The notes under the pieces were generated by a model. That model ran no database searches, was not told the origin of the DNA, and was given only the letters and a program-made list of their open reading frames with translations. Below are positions 5,146-57,602 of a stretch of DNA of 64,000 nt, in pieces. Made by a program: the position numbers and the translations under genes. This DNA comes from Bordetella genomosp. 4. Lineage in GTDB: Bacteria > Pseudomonadota > Gammaproteobacteria > Burkholderiales > Burkholderiaceae_B. Positions within the stretch are counted from its first letter, which is position 1, and every line of letters starts with the position of its first letter. The stretch spans positions 248,001-312,000 of the forward strand of contig NZ_NEVQ01000012.1 of the NCBI RefSeq assembly GCF_002261185.1, written 5' to 3'.

Positions 5146-5178
5146 AAACACCCCTCCACGCCGCGCCTTTGGCTTGCT

Positions 5179-5198
5179 GCCCCCCGAGGGGGCTTTTT
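5179..5198 (+). terminator. Intrinsic terminator downstream of yhdP (first copy)
   Basis: The stem is GCCCCC/GGGGGC with a GA loop, followed by five T. It lies about 35 bp after the yhdP stop and inside the first repeat unit. Confidence 0.7.
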
Positions 5199-5254
5199 AC
5201 CTTGGGGCGGCCCGGCGGTAAAAAAAGGCCCCCACGCTGCGCCTTCGGCTTGCA

Positions 5255-5275
5255 GCCCCCCGAGGGGGATTTTTT
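5255..5275 (+). terminator. Intrinsic terminator downstream of yhdP (second copy)
   Basis: The same C-run/GA/G-run hairpin as in the first unit, followed by ATTTTTT. It backs up the first terminator for rightward transcription. Confidence 0.6.
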
Positions 5276-5293
5276 ACCTTGGGGCGGCCCGGC

Positions 5294-5326
5294 GGTAAAA
5301 AAACAGGCGCCCTAGGGCGCCTGTTT
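5294..5326 (-). terminator. Intrinsic terminator downstream of rho
   Basis: A perfect 26-bp palindrome at 5301-5326 (half-site AAACAGGCGCCCT) is preceded on the plus strand by a run of A. Read leftward this is a strong hairpin followed by seven U. It lies about 55 bp past the rho stop and is distinct from the adjacent tandem repeat. Confidence 0.8.
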
Positions 5327-5380
5327 CAGATCTGAGGCGGGGCCGCGCATCAACGTACGGACAGTCCCGGCGCCTCGGAT

Positions 5381-39233: not shown

Positions 39234-39261
39234 TCAAATCCCGTTGACGGAGAGACGTTGC

Positions 39262-40215: not shown

Positions 40216-40301
40216 TGTGCATGTCCCGGTCGGGTATGAATAGTCTTGCCGTTCGTATGTTATGCGGTGGTCATTGATCGAGATTGGTTTGCTTATTGGA
40301 C

Positions 40302-40643
40302 GTCGAGCCGAGGCAATCGGGCCGTGAGGGCTTCACAAAGCCGGTCCGGCGCGCGGGCGCCGGACACCGTGTTCGCTCACCTCGTCCGCGCCTTCGCGCT
40401 TCCTTCGGTGTCCGCTCCACTCGGCTTTGAGGCGCCCTCACGGCCCGATTGCCTCGGCTCGACTCGCAGTCACTCAAGCTCATCACATCGCTGGCACGGT
40501 TGTCTTGCTTGGCGTTTTTCTGCTGCCCTGTTGGCAAAGAGGAAGATCTTGCAGTGCTGCTATTCGCGCGTGCCCTGCACACGCGCGAATAGCGATCAGT
40601 CCGGGCATGCGGCGGGGTGGCGTGTTGCCAGTTTGGAAGATCT
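40302..40643 (+). repeat. Structured repeat, locus A left copy
   Basis: A 342-bp element. It opens with a perfect 30-bp inverted repeat (40302-40331 with 40434-40463, ends GTCGA...TCGAC) enclosing 102 bp. Inside are stem CAAAGCCG/CGGCTTTG, a GTCCGGCG/CGCCGGAC hairpin and the conserved block TGTTCGCTCACCTCGTCC. The tail has CGCTGGCA, AAGATCTT (40543-40550), a hairpin TATTCGCGCG/CGCGCGAATA (40561-40591) around CCCTGC, GGGCATGC, and a closing AAGATCT (40637-40643). It contains no credible gene. Confidence 0.85.
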
Positions 40644-40768
40644 GCTTGGCCAGAGTTGATGCATGCGACGATGATACGTAGAACGTACGACGACATGTAG
40701 ACATGAAGCATGTGGCGCATCCAACGATGCGTAGTAGGTCTCTATGTGTCACGACGCCCTAACTCGAG
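40644..40768. other. Spacer between the two locus A repeat copies
   Basis: 125 bp separating two head-on copies. The left edge (TGCTTGGCC then CGATGAT) resembles the matching part of the locus B spacer, so the repeat may extend slightly into it. No gene, promoter or terminator was recognised. Confidence 0.5.
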
Positions 40769-41114
40769 AGATCTTCCGTTTATCTCCGATGCCAAGGCCC
40801 TCGCATGCGGATCCCGAACGCTATTCATGGCCGCGCCCGTAGGCGGCCATGAATAGCAGCCCTGCAAGATCTTCTTCCTTGCAGACGCCAGTTCCTACGA
40901 AGCCTACGTAGACCAGTCATGCCAGCGACGAGAGAATCAGAGATGCTGCGAGTCGAAGCGGGGCAGTGACCGTGTTGGCGCGCCTCGGAGTCGCGCGAGC
41001 GGACGTCGAAGGTAGGCCCGAAGGGGCCGGACGAGACAAGCGACGCGGCAGTCGGACGCGCAGGCGGCCGACCGACTCCGTGAAGCGCCAACACGGTCAC
41101 TGCCCCGCTTCGAC
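40769..41114 (-). repeat. Structured repeat, locus A right copy
   Basis: A 346-bp copy in the opposite orientation. A perfect 30-bp inverted repeat pairs 40952-40981 with 41085-41114; its sequence differs completely from the left copy apart from the GTCGA ends. The inner stem is CGGAGTCG/CGACTCCG. The tail hairpin TATTCATGGCCGC / GCGGCCATGAATA lies at 40822-40855, flanked by AAGATCTT (40866-40873) and AGATCT (40769-40774). It ends 84 bp from the stop of the convergent Bug gene. Confidence 0.85.
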
Positions 41115-41197
41115 GTCCAACAGAACTCATGTCCCCGTTCCGCCCGAGCCCGTCAAGAACAAACCTATCCAAGACAAACCATCCACATGACAAAGAC

Positions 41198-42154
41198 CTA
41201 GTTCGCCTTCCCCATCAACCCCACCAGCGTCTTCATCCGCTGCCCCAGTTGCTGCAGCTCTTGACCCCATTGTTTGCCAGGCAAAAACGCCAACACCGGC
41301 GCATCAGCCTTGCCCGCCTCCAGAAATCCCGGATCCTTCATGGTGGCCTCTACGGCATCCTGTACGCGTTGAGCGATGTCATCAGGCAAGCCGAGCGGCC
41401 CCGCAATCCCGCGCTCGGACGATATTTTCAGATCGTAGCCTTGCTCGGCCAACGTAGGGACATTGTTGGCAGCGCGTTTGTCGGCCCAGATTGCCACCCC
41501 TGTCAGTGGAATGCCCGGTTGTCCGAGCTCCAATACCTCGCCTGTGGTCATCATGACGTAATCGACATGTTTGCCCAGCAGCGCGGTCTTGGCTTCGCCG
41601 TTGCCTTTAAACGGAATGGACATGAACTGGAATCCCGCATCCCGTCCTAACTCCAGCATCCCCAGATGCCCTGTTGTACCTTCACCGGAATGTCCGATCG
41701 AGAAGGGCGTTTTCTTGGATTGTGCGATGAACTCTTTCAGCGTGACAGGTTTGCCCGCCTCTCGATTGGCCACCAGCATGATCGGATCGTCGACTATGCG
41801 GGCGATGAGTCGGATCTGATCCGGGTGATAAGAAGTCTTGCGATACATCGGCTGAAAAATAAAGCCCGGTATATTGACCATGCCCAAGGTGTATCCATCC
41901 GGTTTGGCATGTTGAATATAGTTGGCAGAGATCTCGCCGCCTGAGCCCGGCTTGTTGACCACGACGATCCGGGCCGATTCTCCCAGGCGTTTTTCCATAA
42001 AACGCGCCAGATTGCGCGCCATGACATCAGTGCCGCCGCCTGGGGCAAAACCCACCACCAGTTCGATGGGTTTATCGTTGGGCCAAGCCGCCATGACCGT
42101 CTGTGACAGCATGCCAGCGCTTACCAACAGGATACTGCCGAGCATCTTTCCCAT
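41198..42154 (-). CDS. Bug/TctC family periplasmic receptor
   Basis: A 318-residue receptor with a signal peptide (MGKMLGSILLVSAGMLSQTV, cleavage near AAWP), then NDKPIELVVGFAPGGGTDVMA, NKPGSGGEISANYIQ and GPLGLPDDIAQRVQDAV. ATG 42154 follows GGAGAC; the frame is open 102 bp further upstream without signal-peptide character. It lies about 100 bp downstream of the two decarboxylase-subunit genes on the same strand, so it may import their substrate or a precursor. Confidence 0.9.
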   Translation of the reverse strand: MGKMLGSILLVSAGMLSQTVMAAWPNDKPIELVVGFAPGGGTDVMARNLARFMEKRLGESARIVVVNKPGSGGEISANYIQHAKPDGYTLGMVNIPGFIFQPMYRKTSYHPDQIRLIARIVDDPIMLVANREAGKPVTLKEFIAQSKKTPFSIGHSGEGTTGHLGMLELGRDAGFQFMSIPFKGNGEAKTALLGKHVDYVMMTTGEVLELGQPGIPLTGVAIWADKRAANNVPTLAEQGYDLKISSERGIAGPLGLPDDIAQRVQDAVEATMKDPGFLEAGKADAPVLAFLPGKQWGQELQQLGQRMKTLVGLMGKAN

Positions 42155-42256
42155 GGATTTGTCTCCGTATATAGGTATATGGGATGAGAGGGCAATGTAT
42201 TCGCCCGTGTTGTGATACGGGTTATCACCGTCCACGTCGCCGGGCCGGGACAACAA

Positions 42257-42853
42257 TCAGAACGGTTGTAATCCCAGTGCAGCGCGAAACCGATTTTTGA
42301 TAAACGGTCCATCTCTGGGCGGCAACACACGTGGAGGCTCGTTCGCCTCGATAAACACTTGTACGAACGTGACCTCGTCGCGAGCTTGAACATGGCGGAT
42401 GACCTCATCGCAGCCCTCCAGGCTGTCGGTAGAGAACGCATCTCTGATACCAAAACCCTTGGCGACGGCGACCAGATCCGTACCGAGGCTGGAATGACTG
42501 CGCTGCATGCCGGTTTCGCCGAAATGGCCGTTGTCCAGTACCACGATGGTGAGGTTGCGCGGTTGTTTTGCTGCGATCGTGGCCAGGCTGCCTATGCCCA
42601 TGAGCTGCTCGCCATCGCCCGTGATGACAACGACTGATTTGTCAGGTTGTGCCAGCGCCAAGCCTAATCCTAAAGGCGCCGCGCCACCCATGGCGCCCCA
42701 CAGATAATAGTTGCTGTCGCGATCGCCAGCAGCGTAGACGTCGTATGAGGCCGACCCCAGGCCCGTTACCACCAATGCATCGGGAACGCCCGCCAGCACT
42801 CGTGCTACGAACTCCCGGCGTTGGACACCCGGTTCTTTTTGAGTCTGATTCAT
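42257..42853 (-). CDS. Thiamine diphosphate-dependent decarboxylase, TPP-binding subunit
   Basis: A 198-residue protein equal to the C-terminal (TPP/Mg) domain of a thiamine-diphosphate enzyme. The metal/TPP motif runs from GDGEQLMGIGSLATIA to VLDNGHFGETGMQ (GDG then N about 27 residues on), and YLWGAMGGAAPLGLGLAL precedes it. It resembles the beta subunit of sulfopyruvate or phosphonopyruvate decarboxylase (ComE-like). The start at 42853 overlaps the stop of the upstream subunit as TGATG, implying coupled translation and a stoichiometric complex. The true substrate is unknown. Confidence 0.85.
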   Translation of the reverse strand: MNQTQKEPGVQRREFVARVLAGVPDALVVTGLGSASYDVYAAGDRDSNYYLWGAMGGAAPLGLGLALAQPDKSVVVITGDGEQLMGIGSLATIAAKQPRNLTIVVLDNGHFGETGMQRSHSSLGTDLVAVAKGFGIRDAFSTDSLEGCDEVIRHVQARDEVTFVQVFIEANEPPRVLPPRDGPFIKNRFRAALGLQPF

Positions 42854-43389
42854 CAGTTGCGCTCCCACTTTTTCCGTCCGATCAGGTTCTGCCCCAACAA
42901 CACAGCGACTTTATCGCCCGCCCCAAAGGCGGCGTCGAATCCCGCACTGACAATCTCCTCGGCCTCTTCGGGGCGAGAGACACGCAGCACATGTATGCCC
43001 ATCAATTCCAGCGCAGCCTGTGTGGCTCTGCCCATCGGACCTTGCCAGGGATTGAACTCTGCATATTCGCCGCGCATGGTGACCAGCGTGAAAAACGGAA
43101 AATCGGCCGCCTGCAGCAACGAAAACATATTGACGCAGTTACCTACGCCGCTGCTTTGCATCAGCAACACCGCGCGCTGGCCGCCTAGCCAGGCGCCGCT
43201 GGCGAGCGCCACGCCTTCCTCTTCGGTCGTCAGCACGATGTCCTGGATATCCGGATCCGCGATGGCGCTGCGTATGACATGGGAATGGCCGGCATCCGGC
43301 ACGTAGGCGATCTGCCGTACGCCGCCCCTCTTTAATACATTGAAAACGGCTTCCTGCCAGGAAGGCGCCGTAATGGATGGTTGGTTCAT
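42853..43389 (-). CDS. Thiamine diphosphate-dependent decarboxylase, PYR subunit
   Basis: A 178-residue protein equal to the N-terminal PYR domain of a thiamine-diphosphate enzyme. It contains VFNVLKRGGVRQIAYVPDAGHSHVIRSAIAD and the activating glutamate region IVLTTEEEGVALASGAWLGG, then GVGNCVNMFSLLQAADFP. It corresponds to the alpha subunit (ComD-like) of sulfopyruvate decarboxylase-type enzymes. The TPP subunit gene follows with a 1-nt overlap. A divergent LysR gene and a downstream Bug receptor complete an apparent uptake-decarboxylation unit. Confidence 0.85.
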   Translation of the reverse strand: MNQPSITAPSWQEAVFNVLKRGGVRQIAYVPDAGHSHVIRSAIADPDIQDIVLTTEEEGVALASGAWLGGQRAVLLMQSSGVGNCVNMFSLLQAADFPFFTLVTMRGEYAEFNPWQGPMGRATQAALELMGIHVLRVSRPEEAEEIVSAGFDAAFGAGDKVAVLLGQNLIGRKKWERN

Positions 43390-43422
43390 TGGGGGAGATC
43401 CCTAGAGTTGAACGACGTAGAA

Positions 43423-43437
43423 ATCATAAAATGTGAT
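43423..43437. promoter_or_regulatory. Candidate LysR box between the decarboxylase genes and lysR
   Basis: ATCA-TAAAATG-TGAT is a T-N11-A type dyad in the 113-bp AT-rich divergent gap, the standard place for a LysR-family recognition site. Confidence 0.5.
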
Positions 43438-43502
43438 GGATATGTAAATAAAATAGAAAATTGGCATGATCCAATCACGATTCCTGATCGAGGCATAGCA
43501 AG

Positions 43503-44432
43503 ATGGATTTGAAACAACTGCGCGCTTTCCTGACCGTTGTCGAGACCGGCAACGTGACGCGGGCGGCCGACGTCCTCAATCTGGTACAGCCCGCCGTCTC
43601 GCGTCAGATCCGTTTGCTCGAGGAGGACATCGGCACACCATTGTTCGAGCGAGAGCGCCGCGGCATGGTCCTGACGGAGGCAGGCGAGGTACTGGTCGGT
43701 TATGCGCGCCGGGCATTGCTGGAGCTGGACCGGGCGAGGGTGGAAATCAACGGCGTGGGGCAGGGCATCAGTGGCCTGGTGACGCTGGGGCTTTTGCCTA
43801 GCAGTATCGACATGCTCTCCAGTCCGCTGGCATCGGCTGTCGCGGCCGCCTACCCCGGCATACGTGTACGTATCGCCATGGGCTACGCGGGGACGTTACA
43901 GCGCTGGCTGGCATCGGGCGAGGTGGATGCGGCCTTGCTATATGGGGTGGAACGGTCGCCCGATATCGAGTCCACGCCACTGATCGAGGAGCCGCTCTGG
44001 GTCATCGGGCCGAAGCACAGCGCATTGCGTCCGGACCGCCCGGTCGCGTTGGCGGATCTGGTCGGCCAGCGGCTGGTGTTGCCCAGCGCGCCTCACGGCA
44101 TACGCACGTTGATGGAGCATGCATGTGCGGTTGCGCACGTGACGCTGGATGTATCGGTCGAAACCAATGCCTTGAGCGTACAACGCAGCCTGGTGTTGGG
44201 CGGGCATGGGTGGACGATTCTGCCGCCCATCGCAGTCGCGGAGGACTTGCGCAGAAATCACCTGAGAGGCGCGCCGCTGGCCGAGCCGGACATCACGCGC
44301 ACGATAGTGTTGGGATTGCCGACTAATCGACCCATTTCCCGTGCGGTTCAATGCACGGTCGATGTACTGATAGACGAGGCCCGCAACGCGGTGGTTTCCG
44401 GCGCATGGGTAGAGGGGCGATGGTTAGGGTGA
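43503..44432 (+). CDS. LysR family transcriptional regulator
   Basis: A 309-residue LysR regulator with the classical N-terminus MDLKQLRAFLTVVETGNVTRAADVLNLVQPAVSRQIRLLEEDIGTPLF, and an effector domain with GLVTLGLLPSSIDMLSSPLASAV, similar to Nac/Cbl-type or CatR-type members. It diverges from the decarboxylase operon, which it most likely controls through the box at 43423. Confidence 0.93.
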   Translation: MDLKQLRAFLTVVETGNVTRAADVLNLVQPAVSRQIRLLEEDIGTPLFERERRGMVLTEAGEVLVGYARRALLELDRARVEINGVGQGISGLVTLGLLPSSIDMLSSPLASAVAAAYPGIRVRIAMGYAGTLQRWLASGEVDAALLYGVERSPDIESTPLIEEPLWVIGPKHSALRPDRPVALADLVGQRLVLPSAPHGIRTLMEHACAVAHVTLDVSVETNALSVQRSLVLGGHGWTILPPIAVAEDLRRNHLRGAPLAEPDITRTIVLGLPTNRPISRAVQCTVDVLIDEARNAVVSGAWVEGRWLG

Positions 44433-44592
44433 CGTGGTTCCCGTGTTCTTCAGGTCAGGACGCATGTACACTTATTCCAGGTAAGGACGGATGAGGTAGT
44501 GGCTGCCGGGCATGATTGACGCACGGCAGAAAATTGGAACATCCGACGGCAAGCGTCGTGATAGTGTCAATGGATAGCGCCTGGAGTGAACC

Positions 44593-45495
44593 TTGACTAA
44601 CCCCTACGAAGTTCTCGGCGTCGCCTCGACGGCATCGCTTTCCGAGATCAAGCATGCGTATCGCAGGCTGGCAAAGAAATACCACCCTGATCTGAATCCA
44701 GGCGATAAACCCGCCGAGGAAAAGTTCAAGGCCATCGCGAGCGCCTACGCGTTGCTGAGCGACGACGAAAAACGCAAGCGTTATGACGCGGGCGAGATCG
44801 ATGAAAGCGGTCAAGAACGTCCGCAGCATCACTATTACCGCGATTTCGCGTCATCGGATCAAGCTCACCCATATGCAGATGCGTCAGGCTTTGCGGACTT
44901 TATGCATGATGATGCCTTTGCCGAGATACTCAGACGCAGCCAGGAAGCGCAGCGCAATCGGCGTGGGCAGGATATGCATTATCGTCTGGAGATTCATTTC
45001 GCCGAGTCGATTACGGGTGCGAGCAAACGATTGACCTTGCCCGGTGGCGAAGTGCTGGACGTGACGATTCCGCCGGGTCTCGTGAGCGGGCAGGTGCTGC
45101 GTTTGAAAGGTAAAGGTGAGCCCGGTGCCGGTAGAGGCGGCCCAGGGGATGCGCTCATCGAGGTCGAGGTGTTGCCCGATGCGCGCTTTACGCGCAAGGG
45201 CGATGATATTTCGCTGGAGTTGCCCGTGTCCCTGTCCGAGGCCGTACTAGGCGGCAGCGTGACCGTGCCTACCGCTACAGGCGAAGTCGTGATGACGGTG
45301 CCCAAAGGCTCGAACACCGGGACCACCCTACGCCTGAAGGGCAAGGGCGCGCCCCGCCGTGGTGGCGGATTCGGCGATCAGTTCGTCAAACTGAAAATCG
45401 TGTTGCCGAAATCTTCTGATCCGGATCTAGAAAATTTCGTGTCCAATTGGACCCGGGGCAAGGACTTCAACCCGCGGGAGGAAGACAAATCATGA
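44593..45495 (+). CDS. cbpA: Curved DNA-binding protein / DnaJ-class co-chaperone
   Basis: A 300-residue J-protein without a zinc finger. The J domain occupies residues 1-65 with the HPD motif ([11 protein letters not shown]), and the C-terminal substrate-binding domains show [29 protein letters not shown] and [21 protein letters not shown]. This layout equals CbpA, which assists DnaK and binds nucleoid DNA. The start is TTG 44593, preceded by GGAG. The modulator gene cbpM overlaps its stop by 4 bp (ATGA). Confidence 0.92.
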
Positions 45496-45758
45496 GGATG
45501 ACCAAACAGGAGTTTCTGATTTCTTGCGAACTGCCTGCGCCGACCTTAGAGCTATATCTCGAGCAGCAATGGATCATTCCGGAGCAGACCTCCACAGGTG
45601 TCACGTTTTGCGAAATGGACATCGCACGCGTGCATCTGATTCAAGATCTGAAAGTCAATATCGGCGCCAACGACGAGGGCATCGATATCATTCTGCATCT
45701 CATCGATCAGGTGCATGGGCTGCGTTATGCGCTCGCCCAGGTGCAGAAAAAGCCCTAG
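45492..45758 (+). CDS. cbpM: Chaperone modulator CbpM
   Basis: An 88-residue partner of CbpA; in E. coli CbpM inhibits the co-chaperone activity by binding the J domain. The helix-turn-helix-like MerR-type fold is suggested by [25 protein letters not shown] and the C-terminal helix [24 protein letters not shown]. The ATGA overlap with cbpA fits a coupled operon. The stop overlaps the convergent YdjC-type gene by 4 bp. Confidence 0.88.
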
Positions 45759-46669
45759 TGCCACGACGGCCGATCGATGTGTACGCCATTTTGGCGCAAC
45801 CACTGGCCGAGCTCAGGCCGGGCGAGTACGTGGAATTCCGCGGCACGCTGGGCGGCCAACTTATCCCCGGCTCCGGCCACCGCGGGATGGCACATCAAGA
45901 GATCGCCATCTCGCGCGTTGCTCAGCCATTGATGTAGCAATCCGGCGTAGTGGCGCGCGCCACCGTTAAGCCCATATACCCCCAACAAGCGGCGGTTCGT
46001 GCGCCAGCCTTCATGCCGCGCAACACGCGCGACCGCGTTAGCGCCCAGGGCGGCGATGACATGCGCTTTGGCGGATTGCTGGATGGGAATGCCTGTTTGC
46101 ATACCGGGCGCGGTATACCGTAGCCAAGGTCGGCAGTTGCCATACCGCTTTTGCAGCAGTTGAATCAAGCGTGGCAGAACATTGGGCAACTGATGTACAT
46201 GCTGATGTCCATCAACATAATCCGGCGCGCGACCCAAGACCTGTTCAAAAGCATCAAACTGGCGAGTCAACTGCGCGTCGATCAGCGCATCGTTCAGATG
46301 GCCCGCATAGGCACGGGTAATCAGCGCAGGCAGCGGCATGACCGCCAATTGGTGTCGATGCCCAAATGCTTCCGTCAGATTCAGATGCAGGCCGACCTCG
46401 ACGTTGAGGTCGCGCAACTGTCGTGCGTTGGCAGCGAAGGTGGGCCCTTGCGTGAGACAGCTGATGGCGCTGAGCCGGCCCCATTGCGCGAGTTGAAACA
46501 TGCCAGCATCAACGCTCGAATTCATGCCAAAATCGTCGCCACACACGATGATATGTTTCCAGCATCGTTCGCCGTAATTTCGACTGTTCTCGTTCAGCCC
46601 TTCATGCGTGCCTTGATTAAACAGATTGCCTGGTTTGTCGTCGTGGGCTGTGCCGCGGCCGCTACGCAT
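45755..46669 (-). CDS. YdjC/ChbG-type carbohydrate deacetylase (LgmC-like)
   Basis: A metal-dependent deacetylase of the YdjC/HpnK fold. The metal and catalytic residues are seen in HIIVCGDDFGMN (Asp-Asp near the start), VDGHQHVHQLPNVLP (His triad) and DLLMCHPAV. In Bordetella the equivalent LgmC removes acetyl from undecaprenyl-phosphate-GlcNAc for lipid A modification; neighbouring genes fit that role. The start is uncertain. ATG 46669 is the first usable codon before the core strand but lacks a ribosome site and overlaps the divergent gtrA by 66 bp. GTG 46546 would delete the first beta strand. The identity of the fold is firm; the lgm role is inferred. Confidence 0.78.
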   Translation of the reverse strand: MRSGRGTAHDDKPGNLFNQGTHEGLNENSRNYGERCWKHIIVCGDDFGMNSSVDAGMFQLAQWGRLSAISCLTQGPTFAANARQLRDLNVEVGLHLNLTEAFGHRHQLAVMPLPALITRAYAGHLNDALIDAQLTRQFDAFEQVLGRAPDYVDGHQHVHQLPNVLPRLIQLLQKRYGNCRPWLRYTAPGMQTGIPIQQSAKAHVIAALGANAVARVARHEGWRTNRRLLGVYGLNGGARHYAGLLHQWLSNARDGDLLMCHPAVAGAGDKLAAQRAAEFHVLARPELGQWLRQNGVHIDRPSWH

Positions 46670-46999
46670 TGGGCCGTCGCAGTAGCCTGCGTCGAAGGCT
46701 TGCATATGCCGCCACTCGCTGCCAATGCGGTGGGCTGGCTGATAGCATTCGTTGTATCGTTCTCGGGTCATTATCGACTTACCTTTCGCCACTTGGCCTC
46801 ACACTGGATGACAGCCGCGCGGCGATTTTTTCTCATTTCTGCATGCGGATTTCTGTTGAACGAGGCCTCGTATGCCTGGTTGCTGCATGCCACGTCATTG
46901 CGTTATGACGTATTACTTGCATTGATCTTGATCGGGTTGGCCGTGCTTACTTTCCTGGCGAGCCGGCTATGGGCGTTTCGCCGCAAAGCCGAGCATTGA
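46604..46999 (+). CDS. GtrA-like membrane protein (LgmD-like)
   Basis: A 131-residue protein with four membrane helices of the GtrA family: RALIKQIAWFVVVGCAAAATHWAVAVA, AANAVGWLIAFVVSFSGHYRLTF, RRFFLISACGFLLNEASYAWLL and a last helix ending ASRLWAFRR. GtrA proteins are thought to flip or help flip polyprenyl-phosphate sugars. Here it would handle the glucosamine carrier made by the neighbouring enzymes. ATG 46604 gives the family N-terminus; an ATG at 46553 would add 17 residues. The 3' end overlaps the convergent lgmB-like gene by 53 bp. Confidence 0.82.
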   Translation: MRALIKQIAWFVVVGCAAAATHWAVAVACVEGLHMPPLAANAVGWLIAFVVSFSGHYRLTFRHLASHWMTAARRFFLISACGFLLNEASYAWLLHATSLRYDVLLALILIGLAVLTFLASRLWAFRRKAEH

Positions 47000-49597: not shown

Positions 49598-49645
49598 ACG
49601 TGGGTACCCTGGCAGTGCAAGAGCGCCCAGTATGCGTGGCGGCTC

Positions 49646-49662
49646 GTCGAATTTTCGTTAAA
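49646..49662 (-). promoter_or_regulatory. PmrA-like direct-repeat box upstream of lgmA
   Basis: Read leftward: TTTAAC-GAAAA-TTCGAC, two 6-bp half-sites with a 5-bp spacer, as bound by OmpR/PmrA-type dimers. The same box, with one change, lies upstream of the response-regulator gene at 51814-51830. Confidence 0.6.
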
Positions 49663-49704
49663 TGGAATGCGGAAAACGCAAATGGGACAGTGGGATAGCG
49701 ATGT

Positions 49705-51006
49705 TCAACCAAATCTCAGCGTGAAGCTCGTACCCGATTGCGGACCGCCGCGCTGTGATCTGACCTCCAGTTTCCAGCCCTGCATGTCACAGACTCGTTT
49801 CGCAATGGCCAGGCCGAGTCCATGCCGCAAACCGCCATGATCCGTAGCTGATGTAGACGCATCGGCCAGTCGCCCGCTGTAATACCGTTCAAATAGAAAC
49901 GGTAGTTCCGAGGCCTCTATTCCCTTGCCTGTATCGCGCAGCTCGATTGCACCGTCGACCGTCAGCAGCGCCGTCAGGGTGGCGGGCGCTGCATGATCTA
50001 TGGCGTTACGCACCAGATTACGCAGCACGGTCAATAAAGCGTACTTGTCGAGCATGCGTACCGTTTCGGGCGGAATGTGGTTGCGGAACACGAGATCGCA
50101 GGCTTCGGCGATCGCTTCCAGCCCGCGCCATGCATCGTCCATGCAACCATTCAGATCGACGGGCTCGGACGGGCGAGGCTGGTCGCGAGCCATGGAATGC
50201 GCGCTTTCCAACGACGCTGCAATATGGTCGACGTTAGCCACAATACGGGTCAGGCGTTCTTTTGGATCGGCGGGCAGTGCGCTATTGAGCAGCATGATTT
50301 CGCTATCTGAGCGAATCGCGGCCAGAGGCGTTCGGACTTCGTGGCTGAGGTTGGCAGCAAACTCGCGCTCGCGTGCGATCGAATGATCGACTTGGTTCTG
50401 AACGCGATTGAACGCCTCGATGAGACGGCCTGCTTCATCATCGCGAGTGATGGCAAGGTCTGGGGACCCTGGCGCCCAGTCTGATAATCGTGTCGTCAAG
50501 TCCAGCAGCGGGCTCACGGCAACACCCGCAATCCGGCGCGATAGTGCATAGGCGGCAATGATGCACAGCACGCCCACGCCCAGCACGATCAAGCCGAACT
50601 CACGTACGCGGGCTTCGTGCGCGGTGGCGTCATACAACACGTACAGCCGCCCGCGCGCAGTGTCTTCGACCATGACGTGCCATGTTTCGTCATCGGGTTC
50701 CAGTTCATGCAGGCCAGGGGTCAAGTCGCGCAGCGGCGTCGGCATGCTTTGGGGAACATCATTTTGTTGCAGCCATGCGCGAATCGAGCCAGTCAGTTCC
50801 GATGACTCCTGAGGAACCGCATAATTCGTATCGGATTCCAGGTGCTGGATAATGCGATTGCCTTCGGAGGTCAGAATCTGCTCAACCAGGCCGTCCTCCA
50901 TTTGATCGAATGCCAGATAGGCCAGCAGCGCCAGCACGGCGACAAAAATAGAAACCACGCCCGTCAGCGCCCAAATGACGCGCTGGGTTAGGGTGCCGCT
51001 TTTCAT
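49705..51006 (-). CDS. Sensor histidine kinase
   Basis: A 433-residue inner-membrane sensor. The first membrane helix is at about residues 8-33 (VIWALTGVVSIFVAVLALLAYLAF), a periplasmic domain of about 115 residues follows (with acidic stretch LEPDDETW), then a second helix (FGLIVLGVGVLCIIAAYAL) and HAMP. The phosphoacceptor is His222 in FAANLSHEVRTPLAAIRSD. The ATP domain has VLRNLVRNAIDHA, ELRDTGKGIEASELPFLFERYY and HGLGLAIAKRVCDM. It resembles PmrB/BasS/QseC-type sensors. ATG 51006 overlaps the regulator stop by 4 bp. The linked lgm genes suggest that it senses cationic peptides, metal or pH; that is inference. Confidence 0.92.
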   Translation of the reverse strand: MKSGTLTQRVIWALTGVVSIFVAVLALLAYLAFDQMEDGLVEQILTSEGNRIIQHLESDTNYAVPQESSELTGSIRAWLQQNDVPQSMPTPLRDLTPGLHELEPDDETWHVMVEDTARGRLYVLYDATAHEARVREFGLIVLGVGVLCIIAAYALSRRIAGVAVSPLLDLTTRLSDWAPGSPDLAITRDDEAGRLIEAFNRVQNQVDHSIAREREFAANLSHEVRTPLAAIRSDSEIMLLNSALPADPKERLTRIVANVDHIAASLESAHSMARDQPRPSEPVDLNGCMDDAWRGLEAIAEACDLVFRNHIPPETVRMLDKYALLTVLRNLVRNAIDHAAPATLTALLTVDGAIELRDTGKGIEASELPFLFERYYSGRLADASTSATDHGGLRHGLGLAIAKRVCDMQGWKLEVRSQRGGPQSGTSFTLRFG

Positions 51007-51713
51007 GAGCCTGCCCCAGGCTCGACCATCCGCCACCCTACGCCGTGTATCGTTTCGATGCCATCAAAGCCTACGTCGGAAAGCGCTCGCCTCAACAAAT
51101 GCACTTGACTGCGCAAGGCATCGCTCGAGGGTGGGATGTCGTTCCAGAGGATGGCTTCGAGTTCCTCTCTCGATACCACTTGGCCTGGCGTGCGTATCAG
51201 GGTTTCGACGATGAGGACCGATTTGGGAGTGAGGTGCAATGCCTGGCCTGAAACGGATACCTCTCTGGTGCGCCCGTCGAATTGCAGCGGGCCGCAGGTT
51301 TGCACGGCGTCGACCACTTTGCCTTTGGCACGGTGTATCAGTGCCAGCAGGCGCGCCTGAACCTCGGCCAGCGCAAAAGGCTTGGTCAAATAATCGTCCG
51401 CGCCATGGCCGAAACCGGCCAGCTTGTCTTCCAGTGCATCCCGAGCCGTCAGGATCAGCACGGGAATCGCCTTGCGCCATTCGCTGCGCAGAGTGTGCAG
51501 AATCTGGTAGCCGTCCTTGCCGGGCAGGCCGATGTCCAGCACGACGGCGTCAAAATGCTGGCTCTGGAGCATTCGCAGTGCGGTCGTACCGTCGTAGGCG
51601 ACGTCTGGCACAAATCCGCTGAGCTCGAGGAATTGGTACAGATTTCCCGCGATGGTCAGATCGTCTTCGACAATCAGTACTTGGTAGTGCACATTGGCCG
51701 AAACGGTTTTCAT
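51003..51713 (-). CDS. OmpR/PmrA family response regulator
   Basis: A 236-residue two-domain regulator. The receiver has acidic pocket EDD (16-18), phosphoacceptor Asp60 (VVLDIGLPGKDGY), TARD and KPF lysine (YLTKPFALAEV). The winged-helix output domain has LHLTPKSVLIVETLIRTPGQVVSREEL and SQVHLLRRAL. ATG 51713 gives a normal receiver N-terminus; the frame is open to 51857, but that stretch would absorb the promoter and box. It is co-transcribed with the sensor kinase downstream (ATGA overlap). Confidence 0.93.
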   Translation of the reverse strand: MKTVSANVHYQVLIVEDDLTIAGNLYQFLELSGFVPDVAYDGTTALRMLQSQHFDAVVLDIGLPGKDGYQILHTLRSEWRKAIPVLILTARDALEDKLAGFGHGADDYLTKPFALAEVQARLLALIHRAKGKVVDAVQTCGPLQFDGRTREVSVSGQALHLTPKSVLIVETLIRTPGQVVSREELEAILWNDIPPSSDALRSQVHLLRRALSDVGFDGIETIHGVGWRMVEPGAGS

Positions 51714-51813
51714 GTGGGCGGGCGCTGGCGGTGACTCGTGCGGTGACACGTGAGCATCACTGTCAGATGCGGCAGTGACAATTTGATGGATTATTGAGCA
51801 TGCAGGGGCTGCC

Positions 51814-51830
51814 GTCGAATTTTCGTTGAA
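51814..51830 (-). promoter_or_regulatory. PmrA-like direct-repeat box upstream of the response regulator
   Basis: Read leftward: TTCAAC-GAAAA-TTCGAC, 16 of 17 bases identical to the lgmA box. TTCGAC is followed 18 nt later by AATAAT, a possible -35/-10 arrangement, so the box could place the regulator at the promoter. Suggests autoregulation. Confidence 0.6.
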
Positions 51831-51952
51831 TTCGCCAGGGGAAGGGTGATCTCGCATTCATGGCGGCCTCGGGCCTGGGCGCCACGCCGGGAGCGGCCAA
51901 GTGCGCCTCGGGCCAGTCAGGGGGCTGCGGTGGCATTGGGCGGACTAGCCTC

Positions 51953-51958
51953 TATAAT
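51953..51958 (+). promoter_or_regulatory. -10 element for alaS
   Basis: A perfect TATAAT 34 bp upstream of the alaS ATG. The -35 region is weak. Confidence 0.55.
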
Positions 51959-51991
51959 TAAAGATTCGCCTTATTTCCGGTTCGTGCACGC

Positions 51992-54613
51992 ATGAAATCC
52001 TCAGAGATTCGCCAGAAGTTCCTGCAATTTTTCCAGTCCAAGGGGCACACGATCGTGCCTTCGGCGTCGCTCGTGCCGGGCAATGACCCCACGCTGCTCT
52101 TTACCAACTCCGGGATGGTGCAGTTCAAGGACGTCTTTACCGGCAAGGAAACCCGTTCCTATTCGCGCGCGACCTCGTCGCAGCGCAGCGTGCGTGCTGG
52201 CGGCAAGCACAACGATCTGGAAAACGTCGGCTACACCGCCCGGCACCACACGTTCTTTGAAATGCTGGGCAATTTCAGCTTTGGCGACTACTTCAAGCGT
52301 GATGCGATCCAGTACGCCTGGGAATTGCTGACTACGGTATACAAGCTGCCGGCCGAAAAGCTCTGGGTCACCGTCTACCAAGAAGACGACGAGGCCTACG
52401 ACATATGGGCCAAAGAGATCGGCGTGCCGACCGAGCGCATCATCCGCATCGGTGACAACAAGGGCGCCCGTTACGCGTCGGACAATTTCTGGCAAATGGC
52501 CGATACCGGTCCGTGTGGCCCGTGTTCCGAGATTTTCTACGACCACGGCCCGGAGATCTGGGGCGGCCCTCCGGGCTCACCCGAAGAAGACGGCGACCGT
52601 TACATCGAGATCTGGAACCTCGTGTTCATGCAGTTCGAGCGCGACGCTGCCGGCAACATGAACCCGCTGCCCAAGCCGTGTGTCGATACGGGGATGGGCC
52701 TGGAGCGTATCGCCGCGGTGTTGCAGCACGTCCATTCCAACTACGAAATCGATTTATTCCGTCACCTGATCCAGGCTGCGGCGCGTGAAACCGGGGTCAG
52801 CGACCTCGCAGAGAACTCGCTCAAGGTGATCGCCGATCACATCCGGGCGTGTTCCTTCTTGATCGTCGATGGCGTCATTCCCAGCAACGAGGGCCGCGGC
52901 TATGTGCTGCGCCGTATCGTGCGCCGCGCCTTGCGTCACGGTTACAAATTGGGTCAGACCAAGCCGTTCTTCTACAAATTGGTGCCGGATCTGGTCGCCG
53001 AAATGGGCGAGGCCTATCCCGAGCTGGCTCAGGCAGACGATCGCGTGGCGCAGGTGCTCAAGCAAGAAGAAGAGCGCTTTGGCGAAACCCTCGAACACGG
53101 CATGAAGATCCTGGACGGCGCCTTGGCGGGCGTGCCTGCTGGCGGCCAGTTGGACGGCATGACGCTGTTCACGCTGTACGACACGTACGGCTTCCCGGTG
53201 GATTTGACGGCTGACATTTGCCGCGAACGCAATGTCGAAGTCGATATGGCCGGTTTCGAGGCAGCGATGACGCGTCAGCGCGACCAAGCCCGCGCCGCCG
53301 GGAAATTCAAAATGGCCGAGGGTCTGAGCTACGAGGGCGCCGAGACCCGTTTCGAGGGCTACGAAAAGCTCGAGCTGGACAACGTGAAAGTCACGGCGCT
53401 CTATGTGGACGGCACTCAGGTCGACCGCGTCCAGGCCGGCCAAAAGGCCGTCGTGGTGCTGGACGCCACGCCCTTTTACGCCGAGTCGGGCGGTCAGGTC
53501 GGTGATACCGGTCTGCTCGAAGGAGGTGGCGCCCGTTTTGCCGTGGCGGATACGCTCAAGATCCAGGCCGGCGTCTTTGGGCATCATGGCGAACTGGAGT
53601 CCGGCGCGTTGGCCGTTGGCGACACGCTCTTGGCTCGTGTGGACGCCGTGCGCCGTGCTCGCACCGTGCGCAACCACTCGGCGACGCACTTGATGCACAA
53701 GGCGCTCCGTCAGGTGCTTGGCGGACATGTGCAGCAGCGTGGCTCGCTGGTTGATCCCGATAAGACCCGTTTTGACTTCGCGCACGACGCCCCGATGACC
53801 GCCGAGCAAATTGCTCAGGTCGAGGCCATCGTCAATGCCGAGGTGTTGGCCAACGAGCCCACTCAGGCGCAAGTGATGGCGTATGACGATGCCGTCAAAG
53901 GTGGCGCGATGGCACTGTTCGGCGAAAAATATGGCGATACGGTGCGTGTGCTGGACATTGGTTTTTCGCGCGAATTGTGCGGCGGCACGCACGTGACTCG
54001 TACAGGCGATATTGGCCTGTTCAAGATCGTGGCCGAAGGCGGCGTCGCCGCGGGCGTTCGCCGGGTCGAGGCGATCACGGGCGACAATGCGTTGGTGTGG
54101 GTACAGAATCAACAAGCCTTGCTGCTGCGTGCGGCGGGCGTGTTGCGCAGCACGCCGGCGGATCTGCCCGAGCGTATTGCTCAGGTGCAGGATCAGGTCC
54201 GCGCGCTGGAAAAAGACCTCGAGCAGGCGCGCGGCAAGCTGGCCGCCAGCGCGGGCAACGATCTGGCTGCCAAGGCCGTCGACATCAAGGGGGCCAAAGT
54301 ACTGGCCGCTAACGTTGGTGATGTGGACCCCAAAGCCTTGCGCGGAATGGTCGACAACCTCAAGGACCGCCTGAAATCGGCCGTCGTGTTGCTGGCCAGC
54401 GCTGGCGCCGATGGGAAAATCAGCGTGGTGGGCGGTGTGACCGCCGATTTGACGGGCCGCGTCAAGGCCGGCGAACTGGTGGGCTTTGTGGCCAGCCAGG
54501 TCGGCGGCAAGGGCGGTGGCCGTCCTGATATGGCGATGGGTGGCGGCACCGATGCTCAGGCATTGCCGGCCGCGATCGCCAGTGTGGCAGGGTGGATCGA
54601 TGAGCGCCTCTGA
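51992..54613 (+). CDS. alaS: Alanyl-tRNA synthetase
   Basis: Class II synthetase charging tRNA-Ala, 873 residues as expected. The N-terminal catalytic domain has motif 1-3 sequences ([50 protein letters not shown]). The editing domain shows [16 protein letters not shown] with the zinc-binding His pair, and [18 protein letters not shown] with the Cys-His partner site. The C-terminal C-Ala domain has [15 protein letters not shown]. The tusA-type gene starts inside its last codons (14-bp overlap). Confidence 0.98.
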
Positions 54614-54893
54614 ACTACCGAATGGCGCTGGGACGGCAGGAGCTCCCGCGTCGTCGGAGAATCTGCCTGAGTTCCAGCACGACGTCGACGCCAGCGGGCT
54701 GACGTGCCCGCTGCCCATCTTGCGCGCCAAGAAAGCCCTGGCCCAGATGGAGAGCGGGCAGGTGCTGCGCGTCACGACAACAGATCCCAAGGCCGTGCGC
54801 GATTTTCAGGCGTTTGCCAAACAAAGCGGCAACGGTCTGGTGGCGCAGCACGAGACTCAGGATTCGGTGTTGCATTATTTGCGGCGCCGTTGA
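54600..54893 (+). CDS. TusA family sulfurtransferase
   Basis: A 97-residue small sulfur carrier of the TusA/SirA/YedF family. The core [29 protein letters not shown] contains the catalytic Cys36 in the CPxP motif. The residues before it (1-27) are an uncharacteristic Ala/Gly-rich tail. ATG 54600 overlaps the alaS end by 14 bp, so translation is probably coupled. Whether it acts in tRNA 2-thiouridine synthesis or another sulfur pathway cannot be told. Confidence 0.88.
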
Positions 54894-54895
54894 GG

Positions 54896-54931
54896 GAAGG
54901 CTTGCTATAGCCTTCGATTTAATGCTAGAAT
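54896..54931 (+). promoter_or_regulatory. Promoter of the rpsP operon with overlapping hairpin
   Basis: TTGCTA (54902-54907) and TAGAAT (54926-54931) are separated by 18 bp, a good sigma-70 pair 36 bp upstream of rpsP. A 7-bp hairpin GAAGGCT/AGCCTTC (54896-54915) overlaps the -35; it may end the alaS transcript weakly. Confidence 0.6.
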
Positions 54932-54966
54932 CTTCCGTTTTTCACAACTAATTCAAGGGATTACCT

Positions 54967-55227
54967 ATGGTGGTGATTCGCATGGCCCGCGGTGGCTCCA
55001 AGAAGCGTCCGTTCTACAACCTGGTTGCTACCGATTCGCGCAACCGTCGCGATGGCCGCTTCATCGAGCGCGTGGGTTTTTACAACCCCGTCGCCAGCGA
55101 AGGCTCGGAGCAACTGCGCATTGCGCTGGATCGCGTCCAATACTGGACCAACAGCGGTGCACAACTGTCGCCCGCCGTTGAGCGTCTGGTCAAAGACTAC
55201 TCGGCCAAGGTTTCCGCTGCAGCCTAA
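54967..55227 (+). CDS. rpsP: 30S ribosomal protein S16
   Basis: An 86-residue ribosomal protein with the conserved opening [51 protein letters not shown] lies directly upstream of the ATG. It is the first gene of the rpsP-rimM-trmD operon. Confidence 0.97.
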
Positions 55228-55270
55228 GGGCTAGCAGGGAATCTGTGCGTCGTTTTCGGCTGTTGGCCTG

Positions 55271-55897
55271 ATGCCGTCTGATGCCATTACCCCCAACGCA
55301 GCGCCTGACGACTTAGTCGAGTTGGGCCGCATTACCGGGGCATATGGCGTCAAGGGTTGGGTCAAGGTACAGCCGCATTCCGCACAGGCTGATGGTTTAC
55401 GCCGGGCAAAGACCTGGTGGCTGACTCGCCTCGCCCCTGAAACGGCGCGAGGCGTTGTCACGTCTGTACCGACCGCCCATCGGGTGCTGCAGGCTCGGCC
55501 TCAGGGCACGGCCGTTGTAGCGCAGCTCGATGGCGTTGCCGATCGTGATCAGGCCGAGGCCATGCGTGGCTACACCGTACAGGTGCCGCGCAGCGAGTTT
55601 CCGGCAACCGCCGACGACGAATATTACTGGGTCGATTTGATCGGCTGCGCCTTCTATTCGGATGCGGAGGGCGAGCCCGCTCGCGTCGGTATCGTCGAGG
55701 ATGTCATGGACAACGGCGCACACGCGATCTTGCGTGTGGTGTTGCAACGCGCGCCTGCGCCTGGCGCAGAGCCCGAGCCCAGGCTCGATCCCAAGGGTCG
55801 GCCGATGGAAATGCTGGTGCCTTTTGTTGCTGCGCATATCCTGGCGGTGGACTTGTCCGCGCGCCGTATCGATAGCAACTGGCCCACGGAAATCTGA
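55271..55897 (+). CDS. rimM: 16S rRNA maturation factor RimM
   Basis: A 208-residue two-domain protein (N-terminal RimM barrel, C-terminal PRC barrel) that assists 30S assembly with S19. Features are [21 protein letters not shown] and [14 protein letters not shown], with [18 protein letters not shown] near the end. The linker carries a 20-residue Ala/Pro/Glu-rich insertion (ending [17 protein letters not shown]). The stop overlaps trmD by one base (TGATG). Confidence 0.95.
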
Positions 55898-56664
55898 TGC
55901 GCTTTGATGTCGTCACGCTATTTCCGGATATGTTCGGAACCGTGCGCGACTTGGGCGTTACCGGCAGGGCGCATTCCCAGGGACTATGGGCGTTACGCGC
56001 CTGGAATCCTCGCGACTATACCCATGATGTGCATCGCACTGTCGATGATCGCCCTTATGGAGGTGGTCCGGGCATGGTGATGATGGCGGCCCCGCTAGAG
56101 GCCGCTGTTGCTGCTGCGCAATCGGATCGTGCCGAGCAGGGTCTAGGGGTCGCGCCGGTGGTGCTGCTGTCACCGACAGGCCGTCGCTATGATCAGCAGG
56201 GCGCTCAGTCGCTGGCTAATGGCGAGGGCGCCATCATGATCTGTGGTCGCTACGAGGGTATTGATCAGCGGTTTATTGATCGCTGTGTTACCGATGAAAT
56301 CTCGCTCGGCGATTTTGTGCTGTCTGGTGGGGAAATCGCCGCGCTCGCGGTGATTGATGCTGCGGTGCGTCTGGTGCCAGGTGTGTTGAATGACGGTGAT
56401 TCGGCGCTTCAAGACTCTTTCAATGACACGTTGTCGGGGTTGCTGGATAGCCCGCATTACACGCGGCCTGAAGTGTATGACGGGGAGGCCGTGCCTGCAG
56501 AGTTGCTGAGCGGGCATCATGCCAATATTGCGCGGTGGCGGCGGGAGCAGTCTTTGCGATTGACCGCGCAGCGTCGTCCTGATTTGCTTGAGCGGGCGCG
56601 GGCTAATGGGTGGCTGACGCGTGCGGATGAGAAGTTTCTGGCGGCGTTGAAGGCTGTGGGGTAG
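55897..56664 (+). CDS. trmD: tRNA (guanine-N1-)-methyltransferase
   Basis: Makes m1G37 in tRNAs, a frameshift-suppressing modification. The 255-residue SPOUT protein has the trefoil-knot segments [35 protein letters not shown] and [22 protein letters not shown]. The rplS gene that follows trmD in many proteobacteria is not here; instead the composite repeat begins 80 bp after the stop. Confidence 0.97.
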
Positions 56665-56743
56665 GTGTTTTTATCGAGCGGGTCTTTGATTTTTTGGGGG
56701 CTCGTGTTTGTGGTCTTTGCGGAAGTCGGATTTTCTATTGGTC

Positions 56744-57087
56744 GTCGAGCCGAGGCAATCGGCCCGGCCGAGCTTCACAAAGTCGGTCCGGCGCGCGGGC
56801 GCCGGACACCGTGTTCGCTCACCTCGTCCGGCCCGTTCGGGCCTACCTACGGTGTCCGCTCCACTCGACTTTGAGGCGCCCGGCCGGGCCGATTGCCTCG
56901 GCTCGACTGGCAGCAACTAGAATTCTCTGCATCGCTGGCACGACTTTCTTGCTTGGCGTTTTTCTGCAGCCGCGTTGGTAGAGAGAAAGATCTTGCGGTG
57001 CTGCTTTCGGCGGCCGCCCTGCGCGGCCACCTCAAGCGATCGGTCCGGGCATGCGACGGGGTGGCGTGGTGCTTGGTTGGAAGATCT
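56744..57087 (+). repeat. Structured repeat, locus B left copy
   Basis: A 344-bp copy. The 30-bp inverted repeat pairs 56744-56773 with 56878-56907 (one mismatch) and shares its outer 19 bp with the locus A left copy, while the inner part differs compensatorily. The inner stem is CAAAGTCG/CGACTTTG. The conserved block TGTTCGCTCACCTCGTCC is present, as is a small GGCCCG-TT-CGGGCC hairpin. The tail has CGCTGGCA, AAGATCTT (56987-56994), an imperfect hairpin near 57009-57031 and AAGATCT (57081-57087). Confidence 0.85.
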
Positions 57088-57258
57088 GCTTGGCCGCGAG
57101 TGAGGCTTGCGGCGATGATGCGCAGGGCAGTTTTTCCGGCGGCGTATCTAGCATGCGCGTGCCCGGGATCAGCGTTCCTCGCCGCAGACATGATTTGCGC
57201 TCACCATGATGGCATTACAACGAGTGCCATGCGTGGCATTACGTCAATGTGACTGGAG
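57088..57258. other. Spacer between the two locus B repeat copies
   Basis: 171 bp between head-on copies. The left edge (GCTTGGCC, then GCGATGATG) resembles the locus A spacer. No gene or clear regulatory site was seen. Confidence 0.5.
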
Positions 57259-57602
57259 AGATCTTTTGTCCAGCGACGGTGTCACAGCCTGTGCATGCAG
57301 ATCCCGAACGCGATGACCGGGTGTGCAGGGCACCCGGTCATCGCAGCCCTGCAAGATCTTTCTCTTCACCCAGACTGATGCAGAAAAATGCCAAGCAAGA
57401 AAACCGTGCCAGCGATGTGATGAGCTTGAGTTACTGCGAGTCGATGCGGGGCAGTGGCTGCGTGGGGGCGCCTCGTGGTCGAGTGGAGCGGACACCGTAG
57501 GGAGCGCGCAGGCGCGGACGAGGTGAGCGAACACGGTGTCCGGCGCGCAGGGCGCCGGACCGACCACGTGAAGCCCCCACGCAGCCACTGCCCCGCATCG
57601 AC
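57259..57602 (-). repeat. Structured repeat, locus B right copy
   Basis: A 344-bp copy in opposite orientation. A perfect 30-bp inverted repeat pairs 57440-57469 with 57573-57602, similar to the locus A right arms. The inner stem is CGTGGTCG/CGACCACG. The tail hairpin GCGATGACCGGGTG/CACCCGGTCATCGC (57310-57344) is a perfect 14 bp, with AAGATCTT (57353-57360) and AGATCT (57259-57264) around it. It ends 100 bp from the valS stop. Confidence 0.85.

Follow-up and report, generated by a model that had tools for sequence, protein, structure and literature searches.

Head-on pairs of hairpin arms between convergent genes in Bordetella genomosp. 4: a compound intergenic element and its possible role as a two-way gene end

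The 64,000-nucleotide stretch of Bordetella genomosp. 4 analysed here (the window) holds four similar noncoding segments arranged as two facing pairs, which raises the question of what these segments are and what they may do for the genes that they separate. The first-pass annotation had described them as a ~344-bp element present four times, each copy opening with a 30-bp inverted repeat around about 102 bp and continuing into a tail with CGCTGGCA, AAGATCTT, a second hairpin and a final AGATCT. BLAST searches with the four copies returned 40302-40643 (+), 40769-41114 (-), 56744-57087 (+) and 57259-57602 (-), which agreed with the coordinates, lengths and head-on orientation given in that annotation, and all parts of the tail were found. 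The definition of the element itself had to be replaced: each repeat is one arm of a compound DNA unit, with two such units at 40302-41114 and 56744-57602, and the repeating unit is a head-on pair of two unlike arms, 751-871 bp in length.

Architecture of the units

Each arm was composed of a ~162-nt hairpin (H1), a linker and a second hairpin (H2). The H1 stem was mostly 30-31 bp long and surrounded a conserved branched core. In the four window copies, the inverted repeat at the arm start had 42-nt arms that were 90-93% complementary with a spacing of 78-80 nt; counted strictly, it formed a 30-bp stem enclosing 102-104 nt, as had been claimed. The H2 stems were perfect over 14-15 bp in three of the four arms, and the one at 57003-57037 was imperfect by eye. 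The unit ends reached ~14 bp further out, near GAGTGCTATTGGAC-GTCGA, and in complete units the two ends were alike and mutually inverted. Besides H1, the linker and H2 were conserved, and the unit centre was poorly conserved and variable in length among copies. The open reading frames overlapping both window units were mechanical, and none was called as a gene. The features are as follows.

39244-40215, + strand: left neighbour of unit 1, 2-hydroxyacid dehydrogenase, ending 86 bp before unit 1
40290-41128, no strand: unit 1 (type 1) with its terminal inverted repeats, alike and inverted in complete units
40302-40463, + strand: unit 1 arm A H1, 30-bp stem and branched core (covariance model 129.7 bits, covariation, folding)
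40464-40558, + strand: unit 1 arm A linker with CGCTGGCA, GGCGTTTTT and AAGATCTT
40559-40593, + strand: unit 1 arm A H2, stem 40559-40572 / 40580-40593
40594-40643, + strand: unit 1 arm A tail with the final AGATCT
40644-40768, no strand: unit 1 centre, length variable among copies
40820-40857, - strand: unit 1 arm B H2
40952-41114, - strand: unit 1 arm B H1 (covariance model 125.1 bits)
41198-42256, - strand: right neighbour of unit 1, TctC-family receptor, 83 bp beyond the unit
55897-56664, + strand: left neighbour of unit 2, tRNA (guanine-1)-methyltransferase (trmD)
56744-57602, no strand: unit 2 (type 2)
56744-56907, + strand: unit 2 arm A H1 (covariance model 122.8 bits)
57003-57037, + strand: unit 2 arm A H2, imperfect (by eye)
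57088-57258, no strand: unit 2 centre
57310-57344, - strand: unit 2 arm B H2
57440-57602, - strand: unit 2 arm B H1 (covariance model 122.5 bits)
57702-60587, - strand: right neighbour of unit 2, valyl-tRNA synthetase (valS)

A conserved fold, its stems and its spread

The proposed covariance-model check revealed a conserved secondary structure, 80 matches in this genome and relatives in other genera; within the window, the model reported the four copies and nowhere else at E <= 0.01. Trimmed H1 sequences folded far better than dinucleotide-shuffled versions: none of 200 shuffles was as good, and z ranged from -5.7 to -8.5 in eight folds covering both strands. Over 47 pairs of the H1 alignment, 95.5% of 821 cells were paired, compared with 37-44% in slid controls, and 144 cells were changed on both sides, compared with 51.7 in shuffles; such double changes occurred in 28 of the 33 predicted pairs (26 sequences). 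One further covariation measure, the number of additional pair types, was not above shuffles (86 of 500).

The letters of the stems varied while complementarity held. In a survey of 90 distinct stems, whose extents were chosen by pairing score and which therefore favours paired stems, we counted 2428 Watson-Crick, 17 G-T and 98 other positions, and a G-T pair occurred in only 2 of 151 variable cluster-positions. The outer stem bases were mostly GTCG/CGAC, and the stem base read CGTCG in many copies. Additionally, the two strands were not equivalent. Across 30 stem clusters, A-C mismatches exceeded G-T pairs by 50 to 11 (p 4.6e-7), an A-C mismatch in the flanking-gene strand being a G-U pair in the opposite strand, and of the two strands, that of the flanking gene gave the better fold in only 10 of 147 cases (mean difference 7.4 kcal/mol). 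Excluded from the asymmetry test were four more partial matches, any match below 101 nt and every stem in which Watson-Crick pairs numbered less than 20 out of 26, so that the test is biased towards paired stems. The rarity of G-T pairs relative to A-C mismatches argues against simple selection on an RNA with the same sense as the flanking gene, and the structured RNA suggested earlier is putative. Cytosine deamination was considered as the origin of the G/T-rich flanks, and the stem mismatches ran the opposite way.

This genome contained 19 complete units and two subfamilies, with similar units dispersed. In all 19, a type 1 A arm faced a type 1 B arm, and type 2 likewise faced type 2; the A arm was detected alone at some other places (for example L026, L027 twice, L028 and L035). 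Copies devoid of the inverted repeat, which would have spoken against the element as first described, were only a few divergent, truncated or damaged ones, such as L112, L113, L051 and L062. Of 268 genomes belonging to the window's taxonomic family, 65 carried the element, with 3 to 80 matches per congener and with several Bordetella-like and Achromobacter species among the carriers; among 399 genomes of the order, no match was found outside that family. Unit 1 was unmatched in plasmid and phage collections, which may omit records very close to the genome of the window. Many contig ends of this genome fell inside element copies, indicating that the copies break assemblies.

No named family had been recognised in the first-pass annotation, and Rfam gave no match in the window. 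On six loci, five Rfam matches were obtained at E <= 1, all below the gathering score; one of them, MIR1858 on an H1 hairpin, scored 34.6 bits compared with a gathering score of 137.

Gene context, terminators and mobility

Among 150 listed of 204 matches in nine closed genomes, neighbouring matches less than 4 kb apart were head-on in 28 of 28 cases. The flanking genes were convergent at 55 of the 74 loci with both neighbours called and non-convergent at 19, according to a still crude hexamer model; it replaced a codon model, which was dropped because its calls were doubtful in GC-rich relatives. This count left out 8 of 146 matches, which were either weakly palindromic or lay opposite a hairpin already counted, and both hairpins were detected at only 31 of the 55 convergent loci. 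At contig ends, the visible gene ran into the element at 21 of 23 loci. As unlike arms face each other between convergent genes, each gene runs into one arm. Among the Achromobacter orthologues, a model match followed the same gene in 19 of 30, and in 17 of these 19 the same right neighbour was recognised. One orthologous Achromobacter site carried unlike hairpin types, and sites common to many species showed altered yet compensated stems. The first-pass annotation had mentioned neither the convergent placement nor an exchange with terminators.

To compare filled and empty sites, we scanned the 220 nt beyond the stop codon at three loci, picked for an easily followed left gene rather than at random, for a hairpin with TTTT behind it. 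None of the 24 orthologues with the element had such a hairpin, compared with 7 of the 24 without it; the species are not independent, and the sequences include a remnant (L196, element-bearing) and one with only 92 nt after the gene (L158, element-free). The scan thus found no TTTT hairpin in 17 of the 24 element-free orthologues, and a looser rule gave terminator-like sites in 8 sequences with the element and 13 without it, out of 24 each. On the valS side, genome G100 had a T-tailed hairpin by eye and this genome had none. The element hairpins had no U-tract. A consensus scan placed no terminator inside either window unit, its single site lying before unit 2, and a loose terminator pattern at whole element junctions showed no excess (15 of 29, compared with 13.2 in shuffles). 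We found no consistent C-rich, G-poor tract beyond H1 of the kind expected for Rho sites, and neither window unit had a consensus match to a sigma-70-like promoter.

Regarding mobility, empty and filled sites were found, and their intergenic flanks did not align. No target-site duplication was seen by eye in the unit flanks, and none of the loci read held a unit carrying its own transposase. Other insertion sequences had also landed in the element. Longer spacings in genomes G104 and G096 were considered as a possible autonomous parent version, and those looked at contained IS256-like and IS110-like genes (named by eye from the protein) rather than a parent transposon; the insertion sequence in G104 had its own ends and 8-bp duplications. 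The Y1/RAYT transposase domain (PF01797) had no match in this genome (a 23-contig draft), G096 or G100, and was matched in six of nine congeners.

Possible function and relation to known repeats

The results demonstrate the anatomy of the unit with its covariation, its head-on pairing and its mostly convergent placement. They also demonstrate that several species carry it at the same gene pair, that it has multiplied in this genome as whole units, and that loci bearing it do not have the T-tailed hairpin present there in some related species. From the sequence comparisons, we tentatively favour a two-way gene-end cassette that may replace terminators and spread as a unit while also being inherited in place. 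Such a cassette would do the job of a terminator in both directions, making polymerase stall or dissociate and protecting the 3' ends of mRNAs, and would thereby keep convergent transcription out of the opposite gene. It would spread as a non-autonomous unit, through some enzyme or by copying between loci, and its stems may remain complementary because what counts is the fold, or the correction of one arm against its partner, and not the letters. That the better-folding strand is mostly opposite to the flanking gene would be unexpected if a sense mRNA hairpin did the work. We consider it unlikely that the element is a new kind of exchangeable two-way gene end that displaces terminators between convergent genes across Achromobacter and Bordetella-like bacteria and is accompanied by dedicated machinery, which would copy or correct hairpin arms and so keep stems of fixed length Watson-Crick complementary while their letters are nearly free.

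A selfish non-autonomous mobile element, large and MITE-like or REPIN-like, with host function absent or incidental, is a possible but rather doubtful explanation. It would build up between convergent genes as insertions elsewhere do harm, or as a transposase targets bidirectional terminators. The terminal inverted repeats, the two dispersed subfamilies, the copy numbers varying among congeners, the confinement to one family, the differing hairpin types found at a single orthologous site and the use as a landing site all fit this explanation. However, the compensated stems at sites held by many species look like continued selection or correction, neither target duplications nor a unit with its own transposase were seen in the flanks and loci read, and the orthologues that bear the element do not have their relatives' T-tailed hairpin beside it. 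A divergent pair of noncoding RNA genes, transcribed outwards from the centre so that each arm yields a structured RNA of ~340 nt that is antisense to its neighbour's 3' end, would account for the strand asymmetry in folding and mismatches, for core loops that are purine-rich in the outward strand and for the conserved linker and H2. We regard it as improbable, given the poorly conserved centre, the lack of a promoter by consensus in either unit and of a U-tract at the outer end, and G-U making up only ~5% of distinct pairs even in the outward strand. Least probable is a DNA-level device, with H1 serving as a cruciform or paired DNA site between convergent genes, for instance for topoisomerase or a nucleoid protein, as has been proposed for BIMEs. 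The almost wholly Watson-Crick stems would suit it, whereas the core, kept as loops with branch-specific covariation, resembles a folded strand more than a duplex site, and the strand asymmetry also stands against it.

Several known systems resemble the element in part. REPs are described as 20-40 bp palindromes with a GTAG tag, and REP-type repeats as intergenic, often inverted dimers that lie downstream of genes and are common between convergent genes (PMC3733652, seen in part). The present element shares inverted dimers at gene 3' ends with the REP/BIME/REPIN group (the GTAG superfamily, with RAYT Y1 transposases), but its units are 751-871 bp, with mostly 30-31 bp stems around ~100 nt, a branched core and H2; membership was ruled out by the size, by outer bases that are mostly GTCG/CGAC and not the GTAG tag, and by the lack of a Y1 transposase match in this genome. 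CGTC-REPs have 8-9 bp stems, 4-5 nt loops, an unpaired CGTC tag and a CCA tail (same source and extent). They are likewise palindromic, form HH dimers and have no known dedicated transposase, and the stem base of the element is often CGTCG; in contrast, GTCG is paired in the element, and the short stem, unpaired tag and CCA tail were not found. In the parts of the sources seen, Bor repeats of Bordetella are 26-30 bp (PMC1590033), far shorter than the element, and stem-loop clusters were counted in three Bordetella genomes (PMC2267715); by description, these families resemble the element as repeated stem-loops near genes. MITE/ERIC-like elements are also noncoding, folded and dispersed with terminal inverted repeats, but the present stems are free in sequence and compensated, and neither a parent transposon in the spacings examined nor a target duplication in the flanks was seen. 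Bidirectional intrinsic terminators occupy the same place between convergent genes and occurred at some empty orthologous sites, whereas the element is far larger and has no GC-rich hairpin with a U-tract. The Burkholderiales-1 motif, a candidate from the same order listed without Rfam accession in the part of PMC2864571 seen, was compared through its table description alone, and the two may be identical. Literature searches turned up no description that we recognised as this element; PMC11109978 and PMC2817692 name neither Bordetella nor Achromobacter.

Taken as a whole, the element represents a large, covariation-supported intergenic family that lacks a match in Rfam and occurs in genera with human pathogens among their members. 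Its compensated stems, almost without G-T pairs, bear on the evolution of long palindromes. Since natural filled and empty alleles exist at the same gene pairs, the separation of convergent transcription is directly testable, and the same alleles would allow a test of whether mobile repeats can take over this separation between convergent genes.

Paired units and associated sequences

The four copies of a noncoding element that the first-pass annotation had placed at 40302-40643, 40769-41114, 56744-57087 and 57259-57602 are real and lie at these coordinates, and together they make up two units, each with two arms. In each unit, arm A lay on the plus strand and arm B was inverted, with a centre of 125 or 171 bp separating them, and both units were located between convergent genes, as follows:

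40302-41114, arm A on plus strand, arm B inverted: unit 1, between convergent genes for a 2-hydroxyacid dehydrogenase and a TctC receptor
56744-57602, arm A on plus strand, arm B inverted: unit 2, between convergent trmD and valS

The genome of origin comprises 5.53 Mb in 23 contigs, with the window at C6:248001-312000. There, a BLAST search with arm A1 revealed 132 pieces, and the covariance model of H1, the first hairpin of each arm, gave 80 matches at E ≤ 0.001; many contig ends lay inside the element. Nineteen units were complete (751-871 bp), with a short inverted repeat at their termini, beyond GTCGA/TCGAC. The complete units were of two types, and each type had A and B arms of its own, so it is the pair that multiplies; at some other places of this genome, a single arm alone was detected. 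In nine closed genomes (204 matches at E ≤ 1e-4), all 28 neighbouring H1 pairs less than 4 kb apart were head-on among the 150 matches listed.

At L099:3496-5694 of the genome of origin, two facing hairpins were separated by 1.9 kb in which no gene was convincing. A short 81-nt H1 variant was also observed (L125, L126, L132, L135 and others), likewise in head-on pairs and sometimes partnered with a full H1 (L119, L122, L131). At L125:4062-5045 in the congener G096, an IS110-like transposase gene, recognised by eye, lay between two 81-nt hairpins. In G104, from another genus, a 1382-bp IS256-like element was found in or adjoining the hairpin element at nine of ten fetched loci, most of which were picked for long spacing (L209-L214, L216-L218). 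These copies were at least 99.8% identical and occurred in both orientations; nine had an 8-bp target duplication, each its own, and one was inserted into an earlier IS copy.

Hairpin structure and stem pairing

The H1 stem was mostly 30-31 bp long, and in the majority of copies its base read GTCG...CGAC. Beyond the stem, an internal loop (GCTTCACG / CGAGGCGCC) gave way to two branches, one being the hairpin GGTCnGGCGC-loop-GCGCCnGAC and the other a branched arm whose internal loop, TCGTC / CCTTC, was conserved. In 18 sequences from seven genomes, the resulting 47-pair structure was 95.5% paired, and 28 of its pairs showed double changes. None of 500 shuffles, which do not preserve kinship, matched its pairing, double changes or covariation score, and further pair types showed no excess over shuffles (86/500). 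Slid controls were 37-44% paired, a comparison biased in favour of the structure, which was derived from the same sequences. A wider alignment of 26 sequences showed double changes in 28 of 33 predicted pairs. The linker with CGCTGGCA, GGCGTTTTT and AAGATCTT was conserved, with changes, in G100, and AAAGATCT and CGCTGGC were present in G104 too. H2, the second hairpin, came with loops of two main types, and its stems varied yet remained complementary; the anchor and a hairpin were found in 52 of 122 arms examined, and these gave 22 distinct stems. Ahead of H1, the gene strand was rich in G + T and poor in A + C in all groups (GC skew 0.22 to 0.49).

Across 90 distinct stems, we found 2428 Watson-Crick, 17 G-T and 98 other positions. 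The 147 stems considered next formed 30 clusters; with each pair type scored a single time at any position of a cluster, there were 934 Watson-Crick, 50 A-C, 11 G-T and 31 other pairs; at least two Watson-Crick types occurred at 151 positions, and G-T was also there at only two. At one Achromobacter locus, two species (L157 and L159) differed from each other in a block of adjacent bases, with every change compensated on the other side. Selection for an RNA fold on the strand reading in the direction of the neighbouring gene should leave more G-U than A-C, and the opposite was observed; that strand folded better than its complement in only 10 of 147 cases. Read on the opposite strand, the imbalance is as RNA selection would give. 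The stem pattern may reflect either RNA made on the other strand or palindrome correction at the DNA level.

Placement and exchange with terminators

Among 97 clusters of matches in this and relative genomes, 74 had a gene called on each side, and 55 of these were convergent, 31 with both hairpins detected. The other 19 comprised eight co-directional minus, five co-directional plus and six divergent, classes that rest on the gene calls, with some neighbours far away. At contig ends, the visible gene ran into the element in 21 of 23 clusters. As background, convergent spaces in 40 genomes account for 8-12% of all space between genes (PMC1590033).

For one Achromobacter gene, a match lay downstream in 19 of 30 orthologues (the best 30 of 43 genomes), 17 of which had the same recognised right neighbour; L172 and L179 had this gene pair without the element, 101 and 157 bp apart. 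At Bordetella locus L118, a hairpin pair was present in G095 and G096 and a truncated remnant in G101; G097, G099, G100 and the genome of origin had a T-tailed hairpin instead, and G094 and G098 had neither. The element at L023 was present in the genome of origin and G100 and absent from seven others, one of which (G094) had a T-tailed hairpin. Within 220 nt beyond the stop codon, a hairpin followed by TTTT was found in none of 24 element-bearing versus 7 of 24 element-free sequences, where the run at L195 was taken by reading the sequence and the hairpin present at L197 was missed by the scan; a looser rule fired in 8/24 versus 13/24. In the genome of origin, a terminator-like site was present at 6 of 13 element-free convergent junctions (0.8 expected from shuffles, a control covering these junctions only) and in 3/29 left and 5/29 right flanks of element junctions. 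At 5145-5380 of the window, a convergent junction carried terminator-like sequence in tandem repeats.

Distribution and possible roles

The element was found in all nine genomes of the genus and, when up to 12 candidates per genome were scored, in 65 of 268 genomes and 10 of 43 genera of the family. Matches were present in 42 of 43 Achromobacter genomes. Across the order, matches occurred in 4 of 399 genomes, all within the same family, with eight candidates per genome and strict filters that weak members may have failed to pass. When named genomes were scanned with a pattern, 17 stretches matched, all from Achromobacter or Bordetella records.

No Rfam family was matched, and checks for defining traits of REP, CGTC-REP and intrinsic terminators came out negative. 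The element may overlap with Burkholderiales-1 (PMC2864571) or with the stem-loop clusters of PMC2267715. An earlier description elsewhere is possible, because the literature search was a word search of open-access texts. Some junctions of congeners (L204, L205, L121, L057) had a different palindromic repeat nearby, with the pattern GTGTCAGGCTCC...GGAGCCTGACAC, which may be the Bor repeats.

A role at gene ends is favoured by persistence at sites, by changes that are compensated and by the exchange with terminators; in that role, the element would work like paired palindromic repeats. Terminal repeats, multiplication by units, the differing hairpins at a single site and the 3-80 matches per congener favour a mobile element. 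The two readings may hold together, and any function of the element is inferred from these sequence comparisons.
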